64,000 bases of DNA. Origin: Cognaticolwellia mytili (GTDB lineage: Bacteria; Pseudomonadota; Gammaproteobacteria; Enterobacterales; Alteromonadaceae). This document shows positions 13,648-63,274 of the stretch, one piece after another (the stretch's first letter is position 1; every line of letters starts with the position of its first letter). The translations under genes were made by a program, and so were the position numbers. The notes below the pieces were generated by a model. The model saw only the letters and a list, made by a program, of their open reading frames with translations. It did not search any database and had not been told where the DNA came from. The DNA lies in the NCBI RefSeq assembly GCF_002104475.1, contig NZ_NBOF01000002.1, positions 62,001-126,000 on the forward strand, in the 5' to 3' direction.

Positions 13648-13784
13648 ATGCTCATAATTTATCTTACATTAAGTGTAATGATGCAGTTTTCATTGTAAAG
13701 GTGCATGCATCACAGTAAAATCAATTGCTTATTGTATGATATTTTTTAATCAGCCCATTTTGCTATTTTCCTATCACTACTGCA

Positions 13785-13890
13785 TGAATGGTTTGTTTAA
13801 TCAAATAGGGAACACGGTTAAAGTCCGTGACTGTACCCGCAACTGTAAATAGCAAAGAGCTATAAGTCAGGACACCTAACAGTAATATTA
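13785..13890 (+). promoter_or_regulatory. Cobalamin (AdoCbl-type) riboswitch
   Basis: The core of the cobalamin riboswitch is readable: a CACGG/CCGTG stem (about 13813-13828), then GACTGTACCCGCAACTGT (13828-13846), a small TAGC/GCTA hairpin (13850-13863), and AGTCAGGACACC (13865-13876). It lies about 235 bases upstream of the btuDC-cobO-btuF operon. A possible expression-platform hairpin (ACGAG near 13929 with CTCGT near 13965) follows. Boundaries are approximate. Expected action is repression of B12 uptake and adenosylation genes when cobalamin is plentiful. Confidence 0.9.
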
Positions 13891-14125
13891 TTAACAACAT
13901 TTGATAAACTAACGCCGTGCGGGAATACACGAGAGTTACTAATGCTTCTGCTTTCTTGCTGGCACTCGTATACTATTTTCTGCACATTCATTGATACTAA
14001 ATTCAAAATAATTATTTGGGTTGGAGTAGAAAGCACAGTATGAAAGTATTGATAATTAACACTTACCGCCAAATAAAAAAAAATATTCAGGTTAAGCTAT
14101 TTTTTATCTGGTTAAACCAATAACC

Positions 14126-50248: not shown

Positions 50249-50433
50249 TAATAAGTTAGAAATATTACAATCGTTCATGGGGTGTTATATATACGATGGT
50301 GTGCAAGGGGGAACAATAAAATAAAGCGCTGTTGGTGGTTTTTTAGAAAAATATTATTGGCTCACTTGCTATCTTGATTTAGGTTATTTGAGGAGCATCG
50401 TCACTCTTTACCACTTTTGGCATCATGACATTG
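50249..50433. other. Intergenic stretch without recognised features
   Basis: About 185 bases between the operator-like sites and the hairpin repeats. Nothing recognised. Confidence 0.4.
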
Positions 50434-50541
50434 CCTACACGGATGTAGGTACTTAGCTTTTGTCTGGAACAAAAAAGCTGACCATTCATCGACGTGCATG
50501 GATGCACTAATGCCGTGAAGCCATGGATGGCTAAGAACGGC
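50434..50541. repeat. GG-loop hairpin repeat, copy 1
   Basis: Three small palindromes occur: 50434-50449 (loop CGGA), 50494-50507 (GTGCAT-GG-ATGCAC) and 50519-50532 (AGCCAT-GG-ATGGCT). They are followed by AAGAACGGCC. The last two and their spacer (TAATGCCGTGA) correspond to the repeats at 62339-62623, with different but complementary arm bases. The copy runs directly into the secF terminator. Confidence 0.75.
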
Positions 50542-50587
50542 CTGAATATAAAAAGCCGAGCAAAGTTGCTCGGCTTTTTATATTCAG
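50542..50587. terminator. Terminator of sec operon
   Basis: 22-bp perfect arms (50542-50563 and 50566-50587) around a 2-base loop, with a GCCGAGC core and A/T tracts. The left half up to GCCGAGC is identical to the napC terminator at 62631. Confidence 0.93.
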
Positions 50588-50621
50588 TAAATGATCAATT
50601 GAACAAATTATTTACTACTGG

Positions 50622-62338: not shown

Positions 62339-62623
62339 GTGCATGAATGCACTAATGTTTAGAAAAGCTGGATGCCTGAAAAAGAGCTTAATATCGACGT
62401 TCGTTCACATCAACCTACATGGATTTATTAGCGCCAAAGAATCATGGATGACTATAAACGGCCATATGGTCACGACATTACATATATGGATGTACTAAGG
62501 CCTCGAAAAACAGGATGTCAGGGGAGGCCTGAATATCGTCGTTCTTTCACATCGACATACATGGATGTATTAATGCCGAGGAGTCATGGATGACTATGAA
62601 CGGCCATGTGACCATGACATACC
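62339..62623. repeat. GG-loop hairpin repeat, tandemly duplicated (copies 2 and 3)
   Basis: Two diverged units of about 142 bp (62339-62480 and 62481-62623) have the same order of parts: a CATGxATG hairpin, an AAAAGCTGG- or AAAACAGG-type spacer, ATATCG(A/T)CG, TTC-TTCACATC, a second hairpin, and a third hairpin ending ACTAT-AACGGCC. Clear small palindromes with a two-base GG or GA loop are at 62339-62352, 62440-62453, 62483-62494, 62557-62570 and 62582-62595. Copy 1 is at 50434-50541. Confidence 0.75.
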
Positions 62624-62630
62624 ATTCGTC

Positions 62631-62667
62631 CTGAATATAAAAAGCCGAGCATTTAGCTCGGCTTTTT
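62631..62667. terminator. Terminator of nap operon
   Basis: 12-bp arms (62639-62650 and 62656-62667) with an ATTTA loop, preceded by CTGAATAT exactly as at the sec-operon terminator (50542). It lies 32 bases after the napC stop on the minus strand. Confidence 0.9.
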
Positions 62668-62698: not shown

Positions 62699-63274
62699 CT
62701 ACCAGTTTTCAACACCTTTCATATCTGGTAATTCATGTGCGATGCCTTTATGACAATCAATACAAGTTTTCTCTCCCGATGCGAGAGCGTCTGAGTGCAT
62801 TTTCACACTACGATTACCCTGTTCGGTGAAGTCCATATACTCAAAGTTATGGCAGTTGCGACACTCTAGTGAATCGTTATCTTTCATACGCTTCCACTCT
62901 CGTTCAGCCATAGAACGGCGATGATCAACAAACTCTTCACGAGTGTCAATCAGGCCAGTTAGAGCTCCCCAAACCTCTTTACTCGCGGCAATTTTACGAA
63001 CAATTTTATCAGTCCATTTTTTCGGCACATGACAATCAGGACAAGTAGCACGAACACCAGAACGGTTGGCATAGTGAATAGTTTCTTTATACTCTTGATA
63101 AACATTGTCTTGCATTTCATGACAACCAATACAGAACTCTTCAGTGTTAGTCACTTCCAGTGCGGTATTAAAACCGCCCCAAAAGATAACCCCACCTGCG
63201 AAACCAATGGCAAGAATTAACCACATAGCCGCGCTGCTTGGCGATTTTAAAAACGTCCAAAAATTTTTTAGCAT
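62699..63274 (-). CDS. napC: NapC/NirT-type tetrahaem cytochrome c
   Basis: 191 aa. An N-terminal membrane anchor (about 16-36) is followed by four CxxCH sites: CIGCH, CPDCH, CRNCH and CIDCH. It oxidises quinol in the inner membrane and passes electrons to the NapB/NapA periplasmic nitrate reductase. It is the last gene seen, 26 bases after napB, and is followed by a strong terminator. Confidence 0.96.

Follow-up and report, generated by a model that had tools for sequence, protein, structure and literature searches.

Two arrays of small hairpin elements lie within the window, i.e. the whole stretch of 64,000 nucleotides that was analysed, one adjoining the intrinsic terminator of secF and the other adjoining that of a cytochrome gene. 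Copy 1 of the element constitutes the first array, whereas copies 2 and 3, together with two decayed or truncated modules, make up the second one. The parts of the two arrays are as follows.

50399..50549, minus strand (the GGA reading strand): cd unit of copy 1, from module match and sequence reading, in three pieces (50399-50431, 50481-50490 and 50542-50549) separated by two insertions
50432..50480, plus strand: e module of copy 1, 98% match to the e module
50491..50541, plus strand: core module of copy 1, 81.5 bits with model R2
50542..50587, minus strand: intrinsic terminator of secF, its T-run adjoining the cd unit, which ends at 50549
62339..62387, plus strand: leftmost part of the second array, a core-like module in a decayed state, a weak assignment from sequence reading
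62392..62488, plus strand: copy 2, a partly decayed cd unit whose d loop contains a core (62412-62462), 73.3 bits with model R1
62480..62529, plus strand: truncated core-like module with an ATGGAT hexaloop and a CAGGATG loop, from sequence reading and module match
62535..62638, minus strand: cd unit of copy 3 (62535-62553 and 62605-62638), 110.8 bits with model R1
62554..62604, plus strand: core module of copy 3, from hairpin scan and module match
62639..62667, minus strand: intrinsic terminator of the cytochrome gene (62699-63274, minus strand), adjoining the second array

The span 50434-50541 of the first-pass annotation is not a single unit; it is composed of an e module and a core, both of them located inside a third unit, the cd unit at 50399-50549. 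Four recurring modules of 48-51 nt can be distinguished, each with two GGA-loop hairpins at a distance of 25-26 nt whose loops mostly follow the form A(N)GGAX, and their ends are CGTCACTC...CCTGAACAT (CGTC...CAT) for cd, GAC...GGC for core, TGCC...CTG for e and TTCTTAC...CCGA for f. In copy 1 the e module contains a first hairpin, CCTAC-ACGGAT-GTAGG, and a long hairpin, AGCTTTTGT-CTGGA-ACAAAAAAGCT, the core forms H1 (GTGC-ATGGAT-GCAC), H2 (GCC-ATGGAT-GGC) and a basal stem (GCCGT/ACGGC), and the d hairpin of the surrounding cd unit is decayed. The core of copy 3 has ATAC-ATGGAT-GTAT as H1 and AGTC-ATGGAT-GACT as H2, and the right end of its cd unit is the c hairpin ATTC-GTCCT-GAAT, which presents an AGGAC loop on the minus strand.

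When the 64 kb were scanned for A-N-GGA-N hexaloops closed by four or more base pairs, five were obtained, all on the plus strand and all within the two elements, and the sole AGGAN pentaloop hairpin (at 62628, minus strand) is also located there. Copy 1 folds into four hairpins with a z of -2.4 compared with shuffled sequence; copies 2 and 3, taken as whole units, fold no better than shuffled sequence. The stem-loop of the secF terminator is flanked by an A-run/T-run on both sides. At some distance from the arrays, the window also harbours a cobalamin riboswitch (13764-13897; Rfam RF00174, 61.5 bits).

Nested insertion into hairpin loops

The core is found between the two central bases of the loops of its host hairpins, e.g. 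TCACATC|CATGTGA, GCCATC|CATGGC, TTCATC|CTGAA and CCTACATC|CATGTAGG. In the window, the core of copy 1 separates the two Cs in the loop of the c hairpin (TTCATC|CTGAA) and that of copy 3 is inserted in the d loop (TCACATC|CATGTGA). When the flanks of the core are joined, a stem of at least 4 pairs results for 35 of 77 copies; in 1000 shuffles of the right flanks the number is 11.5 on average and never exceeds 21. The rule repeats in other genera of the order, where the host stems are unrelated (GGTACA/TGTACC, GGGACA/TGTCCC, GGCGGCA/TGCCGCC), and in Shewanella mangrovi one hairpin, CGCCAGCATC|CATGCTGGCG, can be observed both filled (L118) and empty (L106). As to the terminal inverted repeats and target-site duplication of a MITE, the core ends have no clear inverted repeat, and a duplication would comprise about one base at most, the empty sites at terminators being too diverged for exact ends. 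The f module, in turn, is inserted at G|G of core H1 or H2 in 16 of 41 cases (shuffled: 6.5, maximum 13). Loop insertion was also considered for e but is not supported, with 0 of 37 copies; e is located at GACAT|ACCG, outside loops, and the e module of copy 1 sits at GACAT|ACC of the cd unit, an insertion point that is identical in most e copies.

Insertion at terminators, mobility and spread

The cd units have one end against a terminator. About 49 of about 61 free c-ends, i.e. ends without another unit following, lie at a terminator, as compared with 48 of 20000 random positions; 42 of these c-ends were called by script from an A-run plus a hairpin and about seven more by eye. In most cases the gene on the c-end side points into the element (core, 74 of 82 copies; cd, 47 of 51). 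At the secF terminator the element is present here, and the site is empty in four relatives in which the next gene is the same. The cytochrome terminator carries a 330-nt array here and two tandem 51-nt units in one relative (G008), and is empty in seven relatives that share the gene order of the latter, i.e. the gain of elements is recurrent at this one target. Filled and empty orthologous sites, as expected of a mobile element, are thus present at both terminators. We consider it very probable that the arrays represent a mobile, nested double-hairpin element.

The genome itself has 31 matches to a 152-nt query and 54 to a 97-nt covariance model, mostly outside ORFs, and all 17 of the 17 genomes of the genus carry it. 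Named records are from Colwellia; further copies occur in Shewanella mangrovi and in a few more records, either gammaproteobacterial or from MAGs. Within the order, the core model has hits in 37 of 295 genomes, which fall into 16 of 101 genera, with at most 20 matches per genome under a stricter filter. Six cd-type repeats are arranged in tandem with a 51-nt period at G010:C1:461684-461979, and in L172 and L197 core-like matches fall into possibly coding stretches. In two related genomes (G149 and G092; loci L186 and L188) a core is located between the 23S and 5S rRNA genes, with its GGA strand antisense; G149 has several near-identical copies of this arrangement, probably one per rRNA operon. 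Finally, Colwellia sp. C1TZA3 contains an element of ~465 bp with inverted ends TATACCCGTTCCACTTCAAG in six copies that are 97-98% alike (L099, L103, L096, L108, L105, L115) and that carry core, e and f modules as cargo.

Well-known bacterial palindromic repeats, e.g. REPs, are tied to RAYT transposases, and the modules resemble REP/BIME elements, being clustered, dispersed, extragenic, multicopy palindromes with dozens of copies per genome. RAYT-like Y1 genes, some of them IS200-like, were detected by Pfam search in 13 of the 17 genomes of the genus, which would be compatible with mobilisation by a RAYT. Nevertheless, we regard this origin as improbable. No module lies near any of the 28 Y1 loci of the genus, G015, which has the most R1 matches of all, is devoid of a Y1 gene, and the module ends are missing the conserved 5' tetranucleotide GTAG/GTGG at the palindrome foot that is part of the REP definition (PMC3686654). 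Membership in the REP/RAYT group was thus rejected, there being neither a cognate RAYT flanked by modules nor a foot tetranucleotide, and the modules further differ from REP/BIME in that the loop is conserved rather than the stem and in their insertion into loops and after terminators. What remains of the REP-like unit proposed in the first-pass annotation is its dispersed, intergenic and mobile nature. Several RAYT-like genes here are flanked by a different repeat, inverted CCTGACCCC, and the Y1 genes with these flanks (L201, L217, L218) apparently belong to a separate REP-type family of the genus. Template switching at microhomologies between the CATG/GATG flanks, instead of a transposase, was considered as another route of insertion.

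Stems change in pairs around a fixed loop

The paired arm changes noted on first inspection of this DNA, GTG/CAC at 50494 against ATA/TAT at 62557 and AGCC/GGCT at 50519 against AGTC/GACT at 62582, are all confirmed in the sequence, and comparison of copy 1 with copy 3 reveals three compensatory pairs, two from G-C to A-T and one from C-G to T-A. The first-pass annotation had proposed a covariation test over related genomes, and there, too, the arm changes are paired. For 26 copies from 14 genomes the covariation score is 0.337, compared with 0.158 for shuffled sequences, and none of 500 shuffles reaches this value; in a hand-drawn structure of these copies 89.6% of the cells are paired and double changes occur in 15 of 26 pairs. 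A set of 43 cores that spans several genera and contains copies from Shewanella and MAGs has a score of 0.451 as compared with 0.213 (0 of 500 shuffles). The shuffles ignore relatedness, whereas a control with slid partners, which takes relatedness into account, gives 0.04-0.12, and 0.04-0.11 for the 26 copies. Compensatory change is real and general, and the covariation builds up across mobile lineages.

As the stems vary in pairs while the loop A and the GGA are fixed, what is kept appears to be a single strand in a fold that displays GGA loops, and on the strength of these alignments we consider selection on the single-stranded fold to be probable. The wide covariation hence supports the part of the original proposal that invoked selection for the folded form. 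The part that invoked dyad symmetry, i.e. a double-stranded DNA site, is not supported. The loop is an asymmetric A-N-GGA-X without fixed bases other than A and GGA, and CAT-GG-ATG is not a kept palindromic core, its innermost T-A step not being retained as a pair: the base preceding GGA may be T, A, C or G opposite a constant A. A binding array of duplex DNA would account for near-palindromic units in intergenic DNA, yet it would hardly be compatible with a central step that is not kept palindromic, with asymmetric internal loops and with the wide variation of the stems, and the free N and X positions effectively refute it, so that we assign it next to no likelihood. The balance of G-T against A-C mismatches leans weakly towards RNA (69 vs 48, a count that includes a few misregistered pairs from f.2 and some H2a rows).

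The loops match the consensus of CsrA binding sites

The loop consensus is A-N-G-G-A-X, with A and GGA fixed and N and X variable. In H1 the first A is present in 57 of 57 loops and GGA is nearly invariant, while N is T (35), G (8), C (8) or A (6) and X is T (38), C (10), A (7) or G (2). The first loop A recurs in 29/29 loops of e.1, 21/22 of f.1, 30/30 of d and 30/30 of c, the ANGGAX rule being common to e, f and d and the form A-GGA-X being found in c. As determined by NMR, an ANGGAX hexaloop directly on a stem is a high-affinity site of RsmE in which N and X are looped out and variable (PMC4005645), and the loops of the modules, hexaloops or A-GGA-X located directly on the stem, correspond to this definition of the high-affinity CsrA/RsmE site. 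From one A(N)GGAX hairpin to the next on the same strand, the distance is 25-26 nt for 93 of 185 unique pairs.

The genome has a single CsrA gene, whose product is canonical (MLILTRRVGETL...VHREEIY), and contains a CsrB-like RNA with a terminator (L063 1515-1830; G000:C1:345214-345545), which scores 43.2 bits against RF00018 (gathering score 71; E 2.9e-10) and has 15 GGA motifs on one strand and 0 on the other. Its AGGAT and ANGGAT loops, e.g. TCATC-AGGAT-GATGA and GGCT-AAGGAT-AGCT, match those of the elements. A shorter CsrB-like candidate is located 2 kb further (L064; G000:C1:347216-347377). Since the fixed and free loop positions agree exactly, the sites are paired, and identical loops occur in the genome's own CsrB-like RNA, we tentatively propose that the rule is maintained by a dimer which reads the loops, the dimeric regulator CsrA being the most likely reader of the fold.

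Several observations speak against CsrA. In one array GGA loops are present on both strands, those of core, e and f on one and those of c and d on the other. Of 82 placed cores, 41 have a GGA strand that is antisense to both neighbouring genes and 5 have one that is sense to both, and the cores between 23S and 5S are likewise in antisense. Loops are not significantly more often intact at places where transcription of the GGA strand is to be expected, and no promoters above chance were found at the elements. The poor folding of copies 2 and 3 as whole units and the weak lean of the mismatches count on the same side. The RNA element envisaged in the first-pass annotation is thus possible in view of the CsrA-type loops, but with GGA loops on both strands it would not be one simple RNA. 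In line with this, a CsrB/RsmZ-type sRNA was rejected on account of the GGA sites on both strands and the results of Rfam scans, in which the elements gave no family at threshold and no Csr/Rsm match at any threshold used. One might still think of a stand-alone CsrB/RsmZ-like sRNA gene on the plus strand that ends at the terminator 50550-50579, as the plus strand of copy 1 forms four hairpins, GGA is present in every loop region, and the hairpin that comes next has a T-run on this strand, too. However, apart from lacking an Rfam Csr match and a promoter above chance, such a gene is at odds with more than 50 matches per genome, with the many adjoining terminators that are one-sided and point at the element, and with the location of the CsrB-like RNA elsewhere in the genome, all of which renders it very improbable.

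The strongest rival to CsrA is the reading of the loops as single-stranded DNA by a mobilising enzyme, since the insertions fall between the two conserved Gs. GGA loops would then be kept because this enzyme recognises single-stranded DNA in its folded form and cleaves it between the two Gs, without any role of CsrA; in a variant, a hairpin-loop nuclease followed by microhomology repair would take the place of the mobilising enzyme. Core and f insertions lie exactly between both Gs of the conserved loop, neither GGA loops on both strands nor the antisense placement would be an obstacle to a DNA process, and single strands can be exposed at terminators and hairpins. On the other hand, e inserts outside loops, the match of fixed and free loop positions to CsrA/RsmE would not be predicted, and there is no candidate enzyme, Y1 being absent from the element-richest genome and having no module nearby elsewhere. 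We regard cutting of DNA loops as possible, if somewhat doubtful.

A model for the elements and its implications

Based on our findings we favour, with a probability of roughly 0.6, an account in which the arrays represent a family of ~50 nt non-autonomous mobile double-hairpin elements of Colwellia and related marine bacteria with a putative readout by CsrA. The cd units would insert immediately after intrinsic terminators, whereas the core would insert between the middle two loop bases of cd units and of other hairpins, and f would insert into core loops, successive insertions finally resulting in nested arrays. Read-through of the terminator or antisense transcription would give rise to array transcripts, which may bind CsrA and thus serve as dispersed low-level decoys. 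One may speculate further that tiny elements, each with about one site for a CsrA dimer, have spread to the 3' ends of genes and use the putative CsrA-binding loops themselves as insertion sites, i.e. that they constitute a mobile self-nesting CsrA decoy system which ties CsrA activity to global transcription via read-through, but we consider this extension rather unlikely. In terms of classification, the elements would be a variant of dispersed palindromic mobile elements that is kept as a folded single strand, with CsrA binding as the leading, still tentative, reason.

The distinctive features of this family are that loops are conserved while stems drift in pairs, that insertion is directed to the loops of hairpins and to the ends of terminators, and that the loop is the same as the site bound by a global RNA regulator. 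Provided that CsrA binds, there would be dozens of mobile CsrA sites per genome outside CsrB/C and a route for repeats to rewire post-transcriptional control; if it does not, the elements would point to a mobility mechanism that targets hairpin loops.

Comparison with known systems

No earlier description of these elements was found in the open-licence literature, but several known systems share individual features with them. The stem-loops of CsrB, CsrC and RsmX/Y/Z also present A(N)GGAX directly on the stem, with variable N/X and with sites in series; unlike in the modules, however, the sites are on one strand, in single genes, and are neither mobile nor nested. The E. coli RNAs RrA/RrB/RrF, which are located between the twin terminators of rRNA operons, resemble the modules in that a CsrA-binding GGA sequence lies just past a terminator and is transcribed by read-through (PMC8144298), but they are restricted to three rRNA operons and are neither mobile nor nested. 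Mitochondrial double-hairpin and repetitive hairpin-forming elements are likewise tiny and potentially mobile (PMC10085805, PMC2800124), no homology being claimed. Those of sponges have conserved stems and variable loops (PMC2800124), whereas the modules show the reverse, i.e. loops that are kept and stems that drift in pairs.

TwoAYGGAY RNA (Rfam RF01731), which is predicted to bind CsrA (PMC4333381), consists, like the modules, of two hairpins with AYGGAY-type loops. Membership of the window elements in this family was rejected, the score at 50450-50600 being 18.8 bits vs a threshold of 43, and linkers and outer stem differ. TwoAYGGAY RNAs above threshold do occur near core copies, all on the minus strand (L107:123-234, L045:165-283, L044:1232-1349), and are part of a larger repeat, several hundred bases long, in Colwellia/Cognaticolwellia.
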